Positions 26,772 through 34,114 of a stretch of DNA of 39,011 nucleotides are shown here, one piece after another. Positions within the stretch are counted from its first letter, which is position 1. Each line of letters opens with the position of its first letter. A program made the position numbers and the translations under genes. This DNA comes from a bacterium. Its GTDB lineage: Bacteria > Patescibacteriota > Gracilibacteria > UM-FILTER-43-11. The notes under the pieces are model-generated. The model had not been told where the DNA came from. It saw nothing but the letters and a program-made list of their open reading frames with translations, and ran no database searches. The DNA lies in contig JAUHWS010000008.1 in NCBI GenBank assembly GCA_030427295.1, forward strand, positions 1-39,011, in the 5' to 3' direction.

Positions 26772-27164
26772 CTAAGTCGTCGCCTCAAAAAGCAAATTGA
26801 TCACATTGGTCACGATGGCAAAAGAAAGGATGACGACCAAAAGACCAATAATCGCCCACCGAATGATGGTAACAGCTTTATCTCGGGCTTCTTGATTACC
26901 GAATGAAGTGATAAAACGAATACCACCGTAAATGAGCATGATCACGGCAATTGAACCGGAAGCAAATAAAAGCAAGCGGATTAACGAGTCTACCACATCA
27001 ATGATTTTGGTTTCAGGACTGACGTTTGACGTGTCCGTTCCAGGAAGGTTACGAGGTCTGTAAATCACATCTCTAAAATCCTGAAGTGTCAATCCAAAAG
27101 TCGCTTTCGTTGAAAGATTAAAGGCAAATACGAAGGCTAGAAGGCGTAGGAATAATTTTTCCAT
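26772..27164 (-). CDS. VirB2/TrbC-like two-helix membrane protein (array member 5)
   Basis: A 130-aa protein with a signal peptide (residues 1-22), a short outer segment and two membrane helices. The paired helices surround the shared array motif IYGGIRFITSFGNQE...KAVTIIRWAIIGL. The pattern hydrophobic-GG-x3-TxxGNxE-K-(A/L)IGL resembles the VirB2/TrbC pilin fold that is common and usually unannotated in Patescibacteria. The track start (27206) overlaps the previous gene; the ATG at 27164 follows that gene's stop by 4 bp. It is the last gene of five. Confidence 0.75.
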   Translation of the reverse strand: MEKLFLRLLAFVFAFNLSTKATFGLTLQDFRDVIYRPRNLPGTDTSNVSPETKIIDVVDSLIRLLLFASGSIAVIMLIYGGIRFITSFGNQEARDKAVTIIRWAIIGLLVVILSFAIVTNVINLLFEATT

Positions 27165-27168
27165 GGGA

Positions 27169-27906
27169 CTAAATAAAGCTAAAGAAATCAATGTCGGTGA
27201 TGGCATTCACCACAGCAAAGGCAAGAGTAATCACCACAAAACCAATCAAAGTAAAAATCAATATCGACCGCGCTTTTGAAACACGGTCATCATTCCCCTT
27301 CGCTAGAATAAAGAAAATACCTGACGTGATTAAGGATAATAAGGCAACAATCCATGCAAAACGAAACAGCTGCCGAACAAATTGAGGGATAAAATCTTCC
27401 ATCAAATCCCCCGTCGGAACCTCGCCTGGACGATTGGGGGCAATCAAGATCTGATTAACTCGTGTGATGACATCCATGGCTTTAGTTTTGGCAATTTCAA
27501 AATCCTCTAACGCTAATACGCGAGGTGGAACACCAGCAGTTGTATTCTGAACATCCAAATAATCCTGTGCCGGCAAATCTAAAAAGTCACGAATGAGTTG
27601 TTTTGAATCATTTAATACCGTTTCAGCTTCATCTAAACGACTATCACTGGTCATTAAGCTACTCACTCGCTTCTCTAAATTATCCAAAGCCACATCAAGG
27701 TCATACTGAGAGGCCTCCATGTTATCAATTAGTGCAGAGACATCCTCACCTGCCTTTTTTTGAGCTGTTTCAGCATCCAGGCCATATTCCACCAATTGGC
27801 CTCGATACTGATCAGTGGCCTCATCCTTATTTAAGGCAAAAACAACTTGAGTTGAAAAAAGAGAGAGTGTGAAAAGGACCAAGAATGTGTGTTTTAATAG
27901 CTTCAT
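27169..27906 (-). CDS. VirB2/TrbC-like protein with coiled-coil ectodomain (array member 4)
   Basis: A 245-aa protein: signal peptide (about 1-24), a helical, probably coiled-coil outer domain (about 28-165), then two C-terminal helices with the array motif in altered form (ITSGIFFILAKGNDDRVSKA then FTLIGFVVITLAFAVV). It is the most divergent member: GG becomes SG, and E after GN becomes D. The ectodomain has a PAQDY/VPPRV loop and no cysteines. Its ATG overlaps the stop of the preceding array gene (ATGA). Confidence 0.75.
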   Translation of the reverse strand: MKLLKHTFLVLFTLSLFSTQVVFALNKDEATDQYRGQLVEYGLDAETAQKKAGEDVSALIDNMEASQYDLDVALDNLEKRVSSLMTSDSRLDEAETVLNDSKQLIRDFLDLPAQDYLDVQNTTAGVPPRVLALEDFEIAKTKAMDVITRVNQILIAPNRPGEVPTGDLMEDFIPQFVRQLFRFAWIVALLSLITSGIFFILAKGNDDRVSKARSILIFTLIGFVVITLAFAVVNAITDIDFFSFI

Positions 27907-28319
27907 GAAAATTGAATACGACTAATGATAGCAACAATACCGTAGGCAGTTAATGATAAAATCAAACCAACTCCAGCGTAAATGATGGTTTTTAAGGCTT
28001 TGTCATATTTTTCCTCATTACCGAAAGCCGTTAAATAAATGTATCCTCCAATAATAAAAGCAATCACCGACAGAGCAATCGCCAGATTAATCCCCCATCG
28101 AATGATAAAAGGAATAACTTTAGCAAAAATAATATTTGATCCAATATCAGCTCCCTCATTTCCAGCCCCAGGCAGAGTACCAGCGCCAGCAGGATTTGAA
28201 ATAATAACATCGGTGCTACCAATATTATTGGCTTGGACCAGAGGAATTTCAAGTCTTTGGAAAAAAGTTAGCATCAAGATCAATAACGAGCCTATTTTTT
28301 TAGCAAGCTTAGAAAGCAA
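27903..28319 (-). CDS. VirB2/TrbC-like two-helix membrane protein (array member 3)
   Basis: A 138-aa protein: signal peptide (about 1-30), a Gly/Ala/Pro-rich outer segment (SNPAGAGTLPGAGNEGADIG), then two helices around the array motif (IIGGYIYLTAFGNEEKYDKA, then IYAGVGLILSLTAYGIV). It overlaps its neighbours on both sides by 4 and 11 bp, so the array is translated as one unit. It is close in size and layout to conjugative-pilus subunits of the VirB2 type. Confidence 0.78.
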   Translation of the reverse strand: MLSKLAKKIGSLLILMLTFFQRLEIPLVQANNIGSTDVIISNPAGAGTLPGAGNEGADIGSNIIFAKVIPFIIRWGINLAIALSVIAFIIGGYIYLTAFGNEEKYDKALKTIIYAGVGLILSLTAYGIVAIISRIQFS

Positions 28320-29043
28320 AGAAGGTGGGATTAATCGTGTAAAGAATCACTGAAGCGGTGAACCAAAGCACCATTCCTATCAAAGCACCATAAATCATTT
28401 TCTTTCCGCCTTCAACCCCTTCACTATTACCTTGTGCTGTTGAAATTCGAACTCCAGCCACAATGATGATCAAAATAGCCACAGCCACAATCAGAGCTGA
28501 GACGTAATTATAAATCAGAGACAAATAGTTATAAAGCAGCCCAAAAGGCCCTTGGGTTTCTTTGCCTTCCTCATAAGCCAAAATAGCTTGGAAGGGACCT
28601 TGCTCATTACCAACCAATGGCTCACCAGACCATAGTTCATACGAAACCTGTTTATCATCAACCGGTACAACTTTATACAAATCATAACCCGGACGTCCAC
28701 CGATAGGTTCTACTAAAAATCTACAATTAAAAGGAATATTCAAACGAGGCACATCTTTTGTCTTTTGATCCTCGGGGGTTTCGTCAGTGGCCTCGGGATT
28801 GGCAACCTTAATTTTGTGTATTTCACTAGCTTTCGATCCGCATTCAGAAGGTGAATCAGCACATTCTGGATAACCCATTTCAACCGCTAATTGACAGCGA
28901 CTTTGAAAACCTGCATCAATGACATTTTCAGGAACTGGATCTGCGGGAGTATCATCGTCATCTTGCGCATGAGTAAAAAGAGGCGCAAATAGCAAAAAAA
29001 GAAAGGTGATAGAAGCGATGATTGATTTGAAGCTTTTAGCCAT
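28309..29043 (-). CDS. VirB2/TrbC-like protein with Cys-containing ectodomain (array member 2)
   Basis: A 244-aa protein: signal peptide ending at about residue 26 (FTHA), an acidic start (QDDDDTPADP), an ectodomain with four cysteines (CQLAVEMGYPECADSPSEC and NCRF), and two C-terminal helices with the array motif (IIVAGVRISTAQGNSEGVEG, then YGALIGMVLWFTASVIL). The cysteines probably form disulfides outside the membrane. The track start is a TTG at 29055; the ATG at 29043 is preferred and overlaps the upstream gene by 8 bp. Confidence 0.75.
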   Translation of the reverse strand: MAKSFKSIIASITFLFLLFAPLFTHAQDDDDTPADPVPENVIDAGFQSRCQLAVEMGYPECADSPSECGSKASEIHKIKVANPEATDETPEDQKTKDVPRLNIPFNCRFLVEPIGGRPGYDLYKVVPVDDKQVSYELWSGEPLVGNEQGPFQAILAYEEGKETQGPFGLLYNYLSLIYNYVSALIVAVAILIIIVAGVRISTAQGNSEGVEGGKKMIYGALIGMVLWFTASVILYTINPTFFAF

Positions 29044-29470
29044 AAATACTTGCAATAAGAAGTTGAACTAAGGTTACTAAAATATAAGCCGAAAGCGTGA
29101 CCACCAAACCAATCAAGGCATATTTGACATAATTCTTACCTTGCTCATGACGCTCACTTCCTCCGGCTGACAACATTAAAAACCCTCCCCAAACCATCAT
29201 CAACACCGAAAGAGTGCCAATGATTGCTGCTAAAAATGAAACAATTCGCTCAAAAAAGAAGCCAATCCCCTGCCTGATCCAACCTTGCCGAGTGGTACCC
29301 TCAATCCCCTGGTTTGTGACAGCCGTCAGGTCAAACATAAATCCTCCACTATCAATGTCCTCCCCTGGAACAGGCTGGGCATGCACCACAGGCACAAGGT
29401 CATGGTCGAAAGAGGAAAGAATCGAAACGGAAAACGCAATGATGAGTAAAAGGAAAAGTTTTTTGAACAT
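29036..29470 (-). CDS. VirB2/TrbC-like two-helix membrane protein (array member 1)
   Basis: A 144-aa protein and the first gene of the array. It has a signal peptide (about 1-31, ending VHA), an outer segment of about 45 residues, then two helices around the motif (VWGGFLMLSAGGSERHEQG, then YALIGLVVTLSAYILV). GN is replaced by GS. A promoter with TATAAT lies just upstream. Confidence 0.78.
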   Translation of the reverse strand: MFKKLFLLLIIAFSVSILSSFDHDLVPVVHAQPVPGEDIDSGGFMFDLTAVTNQGIEGTTRQGWIRQGIGFFFERIVSFLAAIIGTLSVLMMVWGGFLMLSAGGSERHEQGKNYVKYALIGLVVTLSAYILVTLVQLLIASIYG

Positions 29471-29492: not shown

Positions 29493-29521
29493 ATTATAGC
29501 AAATTTTGCTTATTTTAGCAA
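29493..29521 (-). promoter_or_regulatory. Promoter of the VirB2-like array
   Basis: Minus strand TTGCTA (29521-29516), 17 bp, TATAAT (29498-29493), about 22 bp before the first ATG. The -35 box lies in the last codons of rmuC, so the array can be transcribed independently. Confidence 0.6.
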
Positions 29522-30682
29522 GGACTCTTGAGCATTCGGCGTTTTGCTCATTCTAACATTGACTGAAGAAGACATGTCATTGAAAGACTTAGGACGATCA
29601 ATTGCGGCTATATCCGCCTCAAGTGAATTTTGCCCTTGGGTGACTTTAATCACATCCTTATCAATCTTCCCATATTCCTTTCCGGCATTGTTATAAGCAT
29701 TGACTGTTGTTGAGAGATGATTCCCCACTTTATTCATATGCTCTTGATAAGCATTGAGATGGCGCGCCAAGTCTCCCACTCGTTTTTGAATTTCTACAGC
29801 CTGCTTCTCTATAGCCAAAGCTTTAAGAGCTTGCATGACGGTTTGAAGGTAGGCATAAAAGGTCATGGGAGAGACCATGATCACATGCTTTTTGAAGGCA
29901 TATTCAATCAAATCATGAGTATTGACATCTAGCGAACCTACTTTTTGGCTCAAAAGATTGTAAAATACACCATCAGCTGGAATGAACATGAAGGCAAAAT
30001 CAGTGGTCCCCTCCTCTGGGCGGACGTATTTACTGGTTTCATCAATACGCTTTTTGAGATCTGATTTAAAGTCCTTTTCCTTCCGCTGGCGCTCTTCCTC
30101 ATTTTTGGTCTCCATCATGGCATTGTAATTTTCGAGGGAGAATTTGGCATCCACAGGAATCACGGTGTCTCGTACAAAGATCACCGCATCCACAGCCTCA
30201 CCATTTTTAAAGGCGTATTGCATCTTAAAATGAGACGGAGGAAGCTGATTTGAAAGTAGGTTCTCGAGAAAAAACTCTCCCAAAATCCCCCGTTGCTTGG
30301 GATTTTTAAGGATGTTCTCCAAGCTTTTCATCTGCTCGGCAAAGCCGACCACCTGCTTATTGGTTTCATCCAGTTTGGTGAGTTTTTCAGTCACACTTTT
30401 AACATTGTCCGTCACTTCGCGAATGATTTTTTGGCTACTGGCAAATTGCTTTTGAAGTCCCTCTGAAAGCACATCGCGGTTTTTATTAAGCTGCTCATTG
30501 ATGGATCGATCTTGATCTTGAATCCCCTTTTGAAGCTGAAACAGTTGCTCTTGAAGCATTTTAAAAGCCTGATCATCTTGCTTGCCTTGTTTGAGGTCCT
30601 TGAGGTACTGCATGACTTGATAGCCAATAAAAGCAATGGCTCCGAGGCCTAAAATGAGGAGAATGGTGTTGAGGTAGTCCAT
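29510..30682 (-). CDS. rmuC: RmuC-family protein
   Basis: A 390-aa protein with an N-terminal membrane helix (about 5-25), a long coiled coil (about 30-115) and the RmuC domain. Characteristic segments are QRGILGEFFLENLL, AVIFVRDTVIPVDAKFSLENY, YVRPEEGTTDFAFMFIPADGVFYNLL and VIMVSPMTFYAYLQTV. The PVDAKF stretch resembles a restriction-endonuclease-type nuclease core. RmuC limits DNA inversions at repeats in E. coli, and its exact activity is unsettled. The start is the ATG at 30682; the track uses a TTG one codon earlier. Confidence 0.93.
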   Translation of the reverse strand: MDYLNTILLILGLGAIAFIGYQVMQYLKDLKQGKQDDQAFKMLQEQLFQLQKGIQDQDRSINEQLNKNRDVLSEGLQKQFASSQKIIREVTDNVKSVTEKLTKLDETNKQVVGFAEQMKSLENILKNPKQRGILGEFFLENLLSNQLPPSHFKMQYAFKNGEAVDAVIFVRDTVIPVDAKFSLENYNAMMETKNEEERQRKEKDFKSDLKKRIDETSKYVRPEEGTTDFAFMFIPADGVFYNLLSQKVGSLDVNTHDLIEYAFKKHVIMVSPMTFYAYLQTVMQALKALAIEKQAVEIQKRVGDLARHLNAYQEHMNKVGNHLSTTVNAYNNAGKEYGKIDKDVIKVTQGQNSLEADIAAIDRPKSFNDMSSSVNVRMSKTPNAQESLLK

Positions 30683-30731
30683 CAATAATAAATTAGTTAA
30701 ATTTGCATACTTTTTTCATCGCGACTCACCA

Positions 30732-30764
30732 TTTTCATCTCGACCTTGCGGAGAGATCTCCTCC
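30732..30764 (+). repeat. Repeat copy 1 flanking the GIY-YIG gene
   Basis: A 33-bp element, TTTTCATCTCGAC then CTTGCGGAGAGATCTCC. It is matched in direct orientation at 31178-31210 and in inverted orientation at 31103-31135. It overlaps the 3' end of the GIY-YIG gene, so it encodes part of that protein's C-terminus. Confidence 0.7.
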
Positions 30765-31070
30765 ATTTACTCCATTAGGCATATTATGCCAATCACAAGC
30801 TAAATCGTTCCAGTCAGGGTTTGTTGACACAATTAATTCAATCTTTTTAGCCCTTCTCCAATTTTTGAGTTGCCTCTCTCGAGCAAGGGCATTTAAAACA
30901 TACTTAAACTCTTCGCAGTAGACCAGTTTATGGCAATTATACCGACTCGTAAAGCCTGAATTCAAGTGAGTTTTATGCTGAAAAACGCGTTGCATAAGTG
31001 AATTCGTAAAACCAATGTATATAACCTTAGTTTTACTAGCCATCATATAAACATAAAAAGTTCGATTCAT
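30735..31070 (-). CDS. GIY-YIG nuclease domain protein
   Basis: A 111-aa single-domain protein. The family core is visible: FYVYMMASKTKVIYIGFTN (the GIY/YIG strands), catalytic Arg in LMQRVFQHK, GFTSRYNCHKLVY, then RERQLKNWRRAKK with the metal-binding Glu, and NPDWNDLA. Stand-alone proteins of this type are widespread and behave like mobile genes. This one is bracketed by copies of a palindromic repeat (30732, 31103, 31178), and its last residues (GGDLSARSR) are encoded by one copy. The gene lies between rmuC and the UvrD-like gene, unrelated to either. Confidence 0.9.
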   Translation of the reverse strand: MNRTFYVYMMASKTKVIYIGFTNSLMQRVFQHKTHLNSGFTSRYNCHKLVYCEEFKYVLNALARERQLKNWRRAKKIELIVSTNPDWNDLACDWHNMPNGVNGGDLSARSR

Positions 31071-31102
31071 TCAAATTCAATAGATTCAGTTTTAAGTGAT
31101 TT

Positions 31103-31135
31103 GGGTGAGATCTCTCGATATACTCGAGATGAAAA
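31103..31135 (-). repeat. Repeat copy 2 (inverted orientation)
   Basis: Read on the minus strand it begins TTTTCATCTCGA and ends GAGAGATCTCACCC, matching copies 1 and 3. It lies 33 bp upstream of the GIY-YIG start codon. Together with copy 3 it forms an inverted pair. Confidence 0.65.
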
Positions 31136-31177
31136 AAGTGCTAGAGTTTTTTAACGATTGACTCCAATCAATTTTAC

Positions 31178-31210
31178 TTTTCATTTCGACTCTCGCGGAG
31201 AAATCTCCAC
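31178..31210 (+). repeat. Repeat copy 3 flanking the GIY-YIG gene
   Basis: TTTTCATTTCGAC then TCTCGCGGAGAAATCTCC. It is in the same orientation as copy 1, about 446 bp away, so copies 1 and 3 bracket the nuclease gene as direct repeats. Confidence 0.7.
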
Positions 31211-31255
31211 TAAACACCCACAGAATAGTAAACATTTGTTCACTTGTCAATAGAA

Positions 31256-34114
31256 TTACAACTCCGCCGCATCACAGATTTTATTGAAGGGACAGAACGT
31301 ACAAATGCGTGAAGATGGTGTGGGGGCAAAATCAGACTCATTCACCTTGTCAGCTAATTTGATGATTTTTTCTCTAAATTTCTCCAACTTCTTCTCATCC
31401 GGCTCCGTTGAAATTTTGACATCCTCATCCAAAAAATAAAGGGTCAATTTACTCGCCGGTTGATTGAAACACTCCTTAGCCGCCAAGGCATAAATCATGA
31501 GTTGCTGATCTGAATCCACTTGCTTTTGAGACTTAGCCTGGCCCGTTTTATAGTCAATGATCTCCAGCGACCCATCAGGCAAGCGATCCGCTCGGTCAAT
31601 TCGGCCCGACAAGGTGTAATCCCCCATCTTCAACTTAAAACCTTTTTCAAGATAGATGATATTGGGAACGCCTTCTTTAAAATGCTCATAAAACGTTTCC
31701 AAAATTTCCGCCCCCCGCTTTTTTAGAGCCATTCGATGCTCAGCCGACTCAAACCCCACATCAATCCATTTTTCCTCGTAAATGGAAAGGAGTCTGTCCA
31801 GCGAAATATCCTCCTGATAATCTTCAAAAAGGCTCGACTGCTTGCTTTGTTCAACAAGCTGATAAAACTCTTGCAGGGTATTGTGCATTGCTGAACCAAA
31901 GCTCTGGGCCCCACTCATCGGGGTAGGAATTTTAAGAATATATTGGTAATGATACTGGCGAGGGCAACGGTCAAAAGTATTGAGTTGACTATGACTGAAA
32001 CGTTTGATTTTTTCGTTAGCACTAGAGACCTGAACTACTGGTGAAACGGAAATTTCAGGTTTTAAAAAACGCTCTACCCCTTCAGCCGTTCGCTCAACAC
32101 GAGTGACTTTGACATCATCGGCAATTTCAGTCAAAAAAACAGAGGGCTTTTTAGCTCGGGGATTTTGGGCATTCGAAGCGCTATAAAAATCAGCATGGAG
32201 CAAATGGAGTTTTCGCTTGGCCCGAGTCACCGCCACATAAAACAAACGCCGCTCTTCTTCAAGATGAAAATCTCCTTCCGTCGGGAGTTCGTGAATGAGC
32301 TCCTCAGGCAAATCAATACCCCGAGAACGATTGTCAGCCGGAAAACGACGAGACACCAAGCTCGGCACAAAAACCGTGTCAAATTCTAGCCCTTTTGAGG
32401 CATGAATGGTTGAAATTTGCACTCCATCAAGCCCATCTACATCAAACTTAGCCGCAGGATTTTCCCCTGCCTCCTCTGCCAAATCAAGATACTGAACAAA
32501 ATCGAGCACGGATTTTTCTTGATTCTCATTTTCAAAGCGCTGGATTTTTTGAAAGAAGGTCGCAATGTTCACAATCTGTTCTTCGGCTTCAATGGTGTGC
32601 TTTTCCAAAAGCTGCTTGTACAAATCAATGGATTGGGTAAACTGATACAAAGTCTCCCCTACCGTATGCGTTTTAGAATATTCAATGAGCTGAGAAAGAC
32701 CCTGATAAATCTCCTTAAATTCAGACATTTTACCCATTTGAGTCCACAAACTGATGTAGGACTTTTTTGCCTGTTGAAGGCCCTCCAAAATTTGAATCAT
32801 CTGGTGGTCAAACCACGGCATCTTCAGCACTCGAATCAAGCTCATGTCATCCATCACATTCGCCAGAACCCGAAAGAGTGAAATCAAATCGCGAATCTCT
32901 GGCTTGCTGTAGAGCCCCTTTTCTGAAAGAAACTGATAGGGAACATTCGCTTTTTTAAAGGCTTCCACAAAAGGAACAGCGTAACTGTTGGCTCGGCATA
33001 AAATAGCAAAGTCTGAAAGATTAACCTCTGACTGACGGATTTGCTCAAGAACATACTCCACCTCCTGCTCCACGGTTGAAGAATGAATCACAGCCACTGA
33101 AGTTTCATCTCCCGGAACCTGGCCGATCAACTTTTTATTGATTTCAGCTTTAATTTCTAGGCGATCCGGGTTATTTTTTTGAATAGAAATGTAAGCAAAA
33201 TCCAAAATCGACTGACTGCTTCGATAATTTTGATTCAGAACTACCTTTTTAGATTGGGGATATTTCTCAGTAAACTGCAAAATGTTCGAAATCGCCGCCC
33301 CACGGAATTTGTAAATCGACTGGTCATCATCTCCTACCACCATCAAGTTCTGGTGACCCGCTGCCAGCTGATCCACAATATGATTCTGGGCCATGTTGGT
33401 GTCCTGGTACTCATCCACCAAAATATACTGATACTTTTTTTGAAGATGAGCAAGGATATTCGGACGCTCCCTTAAGAGCCTAATCACCTGATATTGCAGA
33501 CTTGAAAAATCCAAAAAATTATTCTTGTAAAGAAGTCCTTCGTATTTTTGATACGCTTTCGCCAACTCTAAAAAACGACCGGCATCCAATTTTTCATCTT
33601 CTGCTTTCGCCTCAGTTTTTCTTTTTTCTGCTGCATTCAAATAATCCTCCGGGGACGCCATTTCCTCCTTTGCTTTAGAAAAGTGACTAACCAGGGCATC
33701 AATAAATTTATTAGGATTCCCCAGGGGGCGATAATAACCCAACTCAAACTCAAAGAGATGATCCTTCATAAACTTCCACTGATTGACTCCCTCCAAAATC
33801 TTAAAACTAGGACTCAGACCAATATCAATGCCGTACTGGCGAAGCAGGCGCTCACAAAAAGCATGAAAGGTACTCACTTGAATCACCGTGTGTCCAATGG
33901 GAAGGCCTTCATCTAAACGCTCTTCCATTTCACCAGCCGCTTTTTCAGTAAAGGTAAGGGCTAGAATCTGATCCGCTCGGGCCCAGCCCTGATCTAAAAT
34001 ATGAGCCATTCGCTCGGTGATCACTCGAGTTTTACCCGTCCCTGCCCCAGCAATCACCAGTATGGGGCCTTTATTATGCTCAACCGCTGTTTTTTGTTCT
34101 GAATTGAGTTCCAC
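31256..34114 (-). CDS. UvrD/PcrA-type helicase fused to RecB-like nuclease
   Basis: A 952-aa DNA repair enzyme starting with GTG. The helicase part has Q motif NSEQKTAV, Walker A GAGTGKTR, LALTFTEKAAGEM, DEYQDTN (motif II), GDDDQSIYKFRGA (III), LNQNYRSS (IV), STIHASKGLEFDTVFV (V) and VAVTRAKRKLHLL (VI). The C-terminal 230 residues form a PD-(D/E)XK domain: FSHSQLNTFDRCPRQY, GRIDRADRLPDGSLEIIDYKTG, then CTFCPFNKIC. One early and three late cysteines fit the Fe-S cluster of AddB-type nucleases. This single-chain layout could serve in place of AddAB/RecBCD (inference). Confidence 0.93.
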   Translation of the reverse strand: MELNSEQKTAVEHNKGPILVIAGAGTGKTRVITERMAHILDQGWARADQILALTFTEKAAGEMEERLDEGLPIGHTVIQVSTFHAFCERLLRQYGIDIGLSPSFKILEGVNQWKFMKDHLFEFELGYYRPLGNPNKFIDALVSHFSKAKEEMASPEDYLNAAEKRKTEAKAEDEKLDAGRFLELAKAYQKYEGLLYKNNFLDFSSLQYQVIRLLRERPNILAHLQKKYQYILVDEYQDTNMAQNHIVDQLAAGHQNLMVVGDDDQSIYKFRGAAISNILQFTEKYPQSKKVVLNQNYRSSQSILDFAYISIQKNNPDRLEIKAEINKKLIGQVPGDETSVAVIHSSTVEQEVEYVLEQIRQSEVNLSDFAILCRANSYAVPFVEAFKKANVPYQFLSEKGLYSKPEIRDLISLFRVLANVMDDMSLIRVLKMPWFDHQMIQILEGLQQAKKSYISLWTQMGKMSEFKEIYQGLSQLIEYSKTHTVGETLYQFTQSIDLYKQLLEKHTIEAEEQIVNIATFFQKIQRFENENQEKSVLDFVQYLDLAEEAGENPAAKFDVDGLDGVQISTIHASKGLEFDTVFVPSLVSRRFPADNRSRGIDLPEELIHELPTEGDFHLEEERRLFYVAVTRAKRKLHLLHADFYSASNAQNPRAKKPSVFLTEIADDVKVTRVERTAEGVERFLKPEISVSPVVQVSSANEKIKRFSHSQLNTFDRCPRQYHYQYILKIPTPMSGAQSFGSAMHNTLQEFYQLVEQSKQSSLFEDYQEDISLDRLLSIYEEKWIDVGFESAEHRMALKKRGAEILETFYEHFKEGVPNIIYLEKGFKLKMGDYTLSGRIDRADRLPDGSLEIIDYKTGQAKSQKQVDSDQQLMIYALAAKECFNQPASKLTLYFLDEDVKISTEPDEKKLEKFREKIIKLADKVNESDFAPTPSSRICTFCPFNKICDAAEL

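Follow-up and report, generated by a model that had tools for sequence, protein, structure and literature searches.

A small GIY-YIG nuclease gene enclosed by cognate hairpin repeats: a probable mobile element with REPIN-like dispersed pairs

Results

Copies of a hairpin repeat bracket a small nuclease gene

The window, by which we mean the whole stretch of 39,011 nucleotides analysed here, contains a small nuclease gene in the gap between a UvrD-type helicase gene and rmuC. An earlier reading of the letters alone (the sequence-only reading) had described this gene as bracketed by copies of a palindromic repeat, two of them direct and one inverted upstream, and both the arrangement and its coordinates were confirmed. 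The features of the locus are as follows.

30686–31255 (no strand): 570-bp interval separating the UvrD-type helicase gene from rmuC, in which the unit lies
30709–30724 (+): degenerate half copy of the repeat, ACTTTTTTCATCGCGA
30732–30761 (+): L-form hairpin repeat TTTTCATCTCGACCTTGCGGAGAGATCTCC, the downstream end of the unit, which holds the C-terminal codons of the gene and its TGA
30735–31070 (−): GIY-YIG nuclease gene, 111 aa, catalytic residues intact
31104–31139 (−): R-form hairpin repeat with core TCATCTCGAGTATATCGAGAGATCT at 31108–31132, inverted with respect to the L form, the upstream end of the unit
31178–31208 (+): second L-form copy, TTTTCATTTCGACTCTCGCGGAGAAATCTCC, just beyond the unit, giving the layout L-gene-R-L

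The repeat has the form TTTTCATYTCGAC(N5-6)GGAGARATCTCC in the window, the centre of the R form differing from that of the L form (CGAG...TCGAGA), and a pattern search of the window returned no further copies of the full repeat besides those around the gene. One of the copies had been said to code for the C terminus of the protein, and indeed residues GDLSARSR together with the TGA are encoded within the copy at 30732, the TGA falling in the tag of that copy. The 111-aa protein matches Pfam family PF01541 (GIY-YIG) with 54.6 bits as a single domain, and has the GIY and YIG motifs and the catalytic Arg, Glu and Asn by which the GIY-YIG superfamily is recognized. In an alignment of 29 nuclease sequences Y8, Y18, G20, R28, H32, Y44, E65 and N84 are invariant.

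At 29510–34114 (−) the UvrD helicase, which is fused to a PD-(D/E)XK nuclease, adjoins rmuC, as it also does in 14 further family members; this pair is a conserved two-gene DNA-repair neighbourhood. A promoter-like motif, TTGACAAGTGAACAAATGTTTACTATT, with the SOS-box-like palindrome GTGAACAAATGTTTAC in its middle, lies upstream of rmuC in relatives from several genera (loci L095, L100, L102 and L109); it has a site at 31212–31252 of the window, where the unit sits between the motif and rmuC. A separate feature of the window is an unusual tandem run, at 26772–29470 (−), of five adjoining and partly overlapping small pilin-like genes (T4SS_pilin, PF18895), one of which matches below the cut-off.

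Repeat copies are scattered through the genome, chiefly as inverted pairs

The suggestion that a mobile unit moves or maintains these repeats presupposes copies at other loci, and a search of the genome from which the window comes (1.48 Mb in 98 contigs) bore this out, the repeat being dispersed and so not confined to the window locus. The full pattern TCATYTCGA-N5..28-GAGARATCT gave 17 matches versus 0 for the control, and the half-site TTTCATYTCGA gave 25 versus 4 for the reversed control pattern, so the repeat is present beyond chance expectation. Copies outside the window are mostly arranged as inverted pairs 35–105 bp apart, each made up of an L form, a spacer and an R form on the opposite strand. 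Such pairs were found on contigs C30, C40, C41, C73, C76 and C79; since C40 and C41 share ~490 bp past the pair as one duplicated segment, these represent ~5 independent pairs. The shared segment (90% identical; 1032–1508 of L012 on G000:C40 and 1498–1988 of L014 on G000:C41), a second dispersed element beside the pairs, also contains a conserved hairpin, GCTGGAGCG...GCTCCAGC, which is present at C79 (L022) as well.

In a set of 49 copies drawn from several genomes, the variable pair of the stem was T-A in 35, C-G in 11, T-G in 2 and C-A in 1, and the next free stem pair was C-G in 25, G-C in 23 and G-G in 1. Because both positions were left free by the search pattern, these compensatory changes support pairing of the hairpin. 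When folded as free DNA, single copies of window-type hairpins are weak (−2.3 to −5.1 kcal/mol), and an inverted pair folded as one strand reaches −18.1 kcal/mol (z −4.0). The L and R forms that make up the dispersed pairs also enclose the window gene, whose unit therefore looks like the autonomous version of those pairs.

Two further small GIY-YIG genes, one of them decayed, are present in the same genome, each bracketed by a different hairpin family (TGTCATTCTAGGACG...GGAGATCCTAGAATCGTC and TGTCATTCCACACCG...GGAGAGCGTGGAATCGTC). The L-gene-R-L arrangement is common to all three loci, and the sibling loci L002 and L004 carry the tag TGTC.

Homologous nuclease genes are flanked by hairpins across phyla

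Relatives of the nuclease gene occur in 35 of 58 related genomes; their distribution is patchy, with up to 7 copies, several of which are decayed, and no relative was detected in a same-genus genome in this survey. GIY-YIG copies per genome reach 8. When the 350-bp boxes flanking the gene were compared with each other, a strong upstream–downstream repeat match emerged at 37 of 43 loci in the related genomes versus 64 of 1571 control positions. A corresponding match was seen in other phyla at 69 of 79 loci (from Bradyrhizobium, Kordia, Lutibacter, Caulobacter, Sulfurovum, Dehalococcoidia, Ignavibacteria, Omnitrophota, Brocadia and others) versus 160 of 4077 control positions. An explicit search for hairpins of the form GTC-[A..T]-C located one beside 205 of 238 homologous genes (86%) versus 390 of 3853 control windows (10%), so the association of these nuclease genes with hairpins is general. 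No hairpin was detected beside 33 of the 238 genes, and the value of 86% is likely a lower bound because nearest-hairpin detection is incomplete for strongly diverged stems (e.g. TGCGAGG and TTCAGA).

Hairpins of this kind might simply be transcription terminators or neutral intergenic repeats, the association arising because the GIY-YIG genes happen to lie in repeat-rich intergenic DNA, and some 22% of the other intergenic gaps in the same loci (62 of 279) do hold such hairpins. In a gap-length-matched control on these loci, however, the corresponding figure for the nuclease genes was 107 of 133 (80%; p 6e-30). The hairpin pairs also show an inverted orientation bias, in that the nearest pair encloses the gene with its tags outward in 104 of 156 cases versus 39 expected. 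Since this explanation is in addition largely refuted by the co-variation of enzyme and repeat in the within-genome swaps described below, we consider it highly improbable.

Hairpins at the homologous loci share an architecture of (G/T)TC, a stem that starts A-T, T-A and is otherwise variable, and then C, usually followed by CA; the commonest tail is CCA (268/591). A very different stem type is found at L087 (G045) and L088 (G024), where GIY-YIG units occur with long GTCACTGCGAG...CGAAGCAGTCTC repeats in dense arrays.

The sequence-only reading had also held that the repeats should not be scattered in genomes lacking this nuclease family, and here the outcome is mixed. A few relatives keep 2–11 copies with no detected nuclease, or with a weak one only: G006 has 11 copies of a CCTGAA family and G013 has 7 copies, and of the window-type repeat G001 has 3 copies and G012 has 2. 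Presence of the repeats nevertheless goes with presence of the nuclease over the set of 58 genomes (9/19 versus 4/39, p 0.003). The orphan repeats can be relics left after loss of the enzyme, since decay is a known fate of REP families, and three of these four assemblies are incomplete (G001, G006 and G013 are 79–88% complete).

Nuclease and hairpin sequences co-vary

Similar nucleases carry similar hairpins across phyla. For genes of different genomes, protein distance and stem distance are correlated with a Mantel rho of 0.33 (null sd 0.03), which stays at 0.33 once syntenic pairs are removed; between the set from the phylum of the window and the loci of other groups, rho is 0.36 (null sd 0.05). 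When repeats were swapped among the GIY-YIG genes of one genome, with closeness to the repeats of the nearest proteins elsewhere as the measure, 0 of 2000 permutations did as well as the true assignment. Neither genome composition nor a shared location therefore accounts for the pairing. These tests give good support to a specific match between enzyme and repeat, with a separate hairpin sequence for every nuclease lineage. In an exploratory analysis uncorrected for shared ancestry, the protein positions that vary most closely with the stem are residues 10, 14 and 16, which lie between the two motifs.

This tracking of the GIY-YIG protein by the repeat sequence also bears on whether ordinary REP-type hairpins might be moved by an IS200/RAYT-type tyrosine transposase, with the GIY-YIG genes riding between them. 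A Y1 transposase is present in 25 of the 58 related genomes and in the genome of the window, and once lies ~180 bp from a repeat pair. That IS200-like gene, however, has hairpin ends of its own with another sequence, and was set aside as the mobiliser. Moreover, the incomplete assembly of G006 has 11 copies of one repeat family and no Y1 match, and CGTC repeats have been found to be unassociated with transposase genes (Di Nocera et al. 2013, PMC3733652). We therefore regard a transposase of this type as an improbable mover of the hairpins.

The gene and its end hairpins appear at new sites as a unit

In genome G221, the loci L210 and L225 are 99.8% identical over 410 bp and have unrelated flanks, the identity ending at the outer edges of the hairpins (TGTCATTCCCGC ... 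GCGGGAATGACA). Units from Acetothermia and Dehalococcoidia share 90.6% identity that is restricted to the unit, and those of two Lutibacter species are 88.6% identical and located at different sites. Azospirillum lipoferum 4B carries a unit between sufB and sufC (617 bp) that is flanked on either side by hairpin pairs, whereas the sufB–sufC gap is 55–129 bp and lacks the unit in A. ramasamyi, A. oryzae, strain B510, A. thermophilum and A. brasilense, the closest of which shows 96% identity. These comparisons lend good support to the view that the unit, with its end hairpins, appears at new sites and moves as a discrete piece. Contig C21 of G221 holds six GIY-YIG units (L210, L225, L238, L257, L289 and L294) within ~45 kb, one of them in a 336-aa open frame; this cluster is a local burst of copies.

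Comparison with empty sites, which had been put forward as a check on mobility, gave short gaps lacking the unit both at sufB–sufC and between UvrD and RmuC, where the gap is 36–88 bp in four relatives; in three more relatives it holds hairpin pairs of other families. The part of the check that did not succeed concerns the exact junction: the UvrD-RmuC gap is present in G001 (same genus) and 13 other relatives, and from these a base-exact empty-site junction for the window unit was not obtained, because intergenic DNA diverges too fast. For L225, an empty site was sought in the 98% relative G240, where the gap is filled by other DNA.

The dN/dS of the nuclease is 0.03–0.17, indicative of purifying selection and of a protein that is kept functional. 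The family is nearly absent from mobile replicons, with matches in 1 of 72,556 plasmid records and 0 of 50,697 phage records; the sole plasmid match is the Azospirillum replicon that carries the sufB–sufC unit.

These last observations can be set beside the main rival explanation, namely that the enzyme controls DNA uptake or recombination. The nuclease would then cut incoming or exposed single strands at the repeats, thereby tuning transformation and local gene exchange; the repeats would spread by recombination, and selection would keep the gene near its targets. Strong purifying selection on the nuclease fits such a role, as does near-absence from plasmids and phages, unlike ordinary mobile genes, and the Ssn nuclease of Neisseria meningitidis is reported to act on dispersed repeats and to modulate natural transformation. 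Yet the patchy presence, the decayed copies and the occurrence of up to 8 copies per genome fit a moving element better, as do insertion into an operon (sufB–sufC) and discrete 99.8% duplicates. We think it rather unlikely that uptake or recombination control accounts for the locus, although such a role is compatible with the mobile-element reading and the two could coexist.

Discussion

On balance, we favour the interpretation that the window contains a small mobile element, in which a GIY-YIG gene lies between inverted cognate hairpin ends, that the dispersed pairs are its REPIN-like counterparts, and that both would spread by a nuclease-driven process involving host repair. The sequence-only reading had likened the locus to a REP sequence with its RAYT transposase, with a GIY-YIG enzyme in place of the latter. 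Dispersed inverted pairs, bracketing of the gene across phyla, co-variation of enzyme and repeat, and movement of the unit all sustain that likeness; that the nuclease itself drives the movement of the repeats is the portion of it that we infer.

In the mechanism that we propose, the nuclease would recognize its own hairpin in single-stranded DNA, whether at a replication fork or during DNA uptake or repair, and would cut next to the constant (G/T)TC tag at the foot of the hairpin. Repair of the break might then draw on another REP-flanked piece, or the cut end might be joined to one, so that an adjacent repeat pair, or the entire gene unit, would be copied to a different position at or close to the cut. 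Because the GIY-YIG reaction is hydrolytic and leaves ends unjoined, the copying would fall to host repair in the manner of homing, and not to true transposase chemistry. A homing-like, repair-dependent route is accordingly more likely than strand transfer by the enzyme. As in a homing endonuclease element, the window gene sits between copies of its presumed target; no intron or intein was seen at the locus, and no unoccupied repeat pair was detected at the exact site.

The nearest solved structures by sequence profile are those of UPF0213 proteins (PDB 1zg2 and 1ywl; E 5e-10 and 4e-6), which are distant relatives and are not known to be repeat-associated. The window nuclease probably belongs with the Ssn family of GIY-YIG nucleases, which are reported to cut single-stranded but not double-stranded DNA at specific sites. 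Chenal, Veyrier and co-workers are reported to have described Ssn, in Nature Communications in 2025, as widespread site-specific single-strand GIY-YIG nucleases with cognate repeats, in work that reportedly concerns cutting of single-stranded DNA and transformation in Neisseria. The likeness to Ssn lies in a single-domain GIY-YIG protein of ~100 residues with cognate dispersed repeats around its gene, and in the family studied here a cognate dispersed repeat is likewise found near the gene and differs between homologs. If Ssn is as reported, the pairing of enzyme and repeat as such is already known, and what is added here is the mobility of the unit, the REPIN-like pairs, the link to orphan CGTC REPs and the finding that one small genome can hold several enzyme–repeat pairs.

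CGTC REPs are characterized by a CGTC or TGTC tag, an 8–9 bp stem starting with AT, a CCA tail and an organization as head-to-head dimers, and their superfamily includes dRS3 of Neisseria and RPE-4 and RPE-6 of Rickettsia (Di Nocera et al. 2013, PMC3733652). The hairpins beside most homologous nucleases resemble them in having an unpaired (C/T)GTC end tag and a stem that starts A-T/T-A, and in forming mostly head-to-head dimers with outward tags, 20–100 bp spacers and several families per genome; furthermore, Bradyrhizobium, Sulfurovum and Azospirillum, which are named in that study, are also among the nuclease loci found here. The window repeat likewise forms head-to-head dimers, but its tag is TTTC and not CGTC, TGTC or CCTC, and its tail is CTC in place of the 3-nt CCA. 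In its stem, ATYTC and GARAT are paired (with compensatory changes) and are followed by G.A and A.G mismatches and then by one C-G/G-C pair. Judged by its tag and tail, the window repeat is best called a TTTC-tagged relative of the CGTC REPs.

The partner is also a point of difference. CGTC REPs were described as unassociated with transposase genes and as elements that "apparently lack a dedicated transposase"; GIY-YIG is unmentioned in that paper, which left the mobilising enzyme open (PMC3733652), whereas here the partner is a GIY-YIG gene. Among the papers searched, none joined GIY-YIG with REP terms or with dRS3. We tentatively raise the possibility, for which we would claim somewhat less than for the mobile element itself, that GIY-YIG nucleases are the missing dedicated enzymes of CGTC-type REPs, which occur in many bacterial phyla. 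They would form an HUH-independent class of mobile repeat system, the repeat pairs and the nuclease gene itself being spread by an enzyme that hydrolyses single strands at a hairpin target particular to its lineage. CGTC-type REPs are among the commonest short bacterial repeats, and a partner that co-varies with the repeat makes the question of their enzyme testable with one small protein and short oligonucleotides.

With REPIN/RAYT (TnpA-REP) systems, the locus shares a chromosomal gene flanked by hairpin repeats, gene-less dispersed inverted pairs, and a sequence-specific pairing of enzyme and repeat. It differs from them in that the enzyme is a GIY-YIG protein and not an HUH tyrosine transposase (its Pfam matches are to GIY-YIG only), in that the Y1 transposases of the genome lie elsewhere and not between window repeats, and in that the hairpin tag is TTTC and not GTAG. 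If the proposal is true, these nucleases would provide a natural panel of sequence-specific hairpin nucleases, and would represent a second, chemically different solution to the role that RAYT plays for GTAG REPs.
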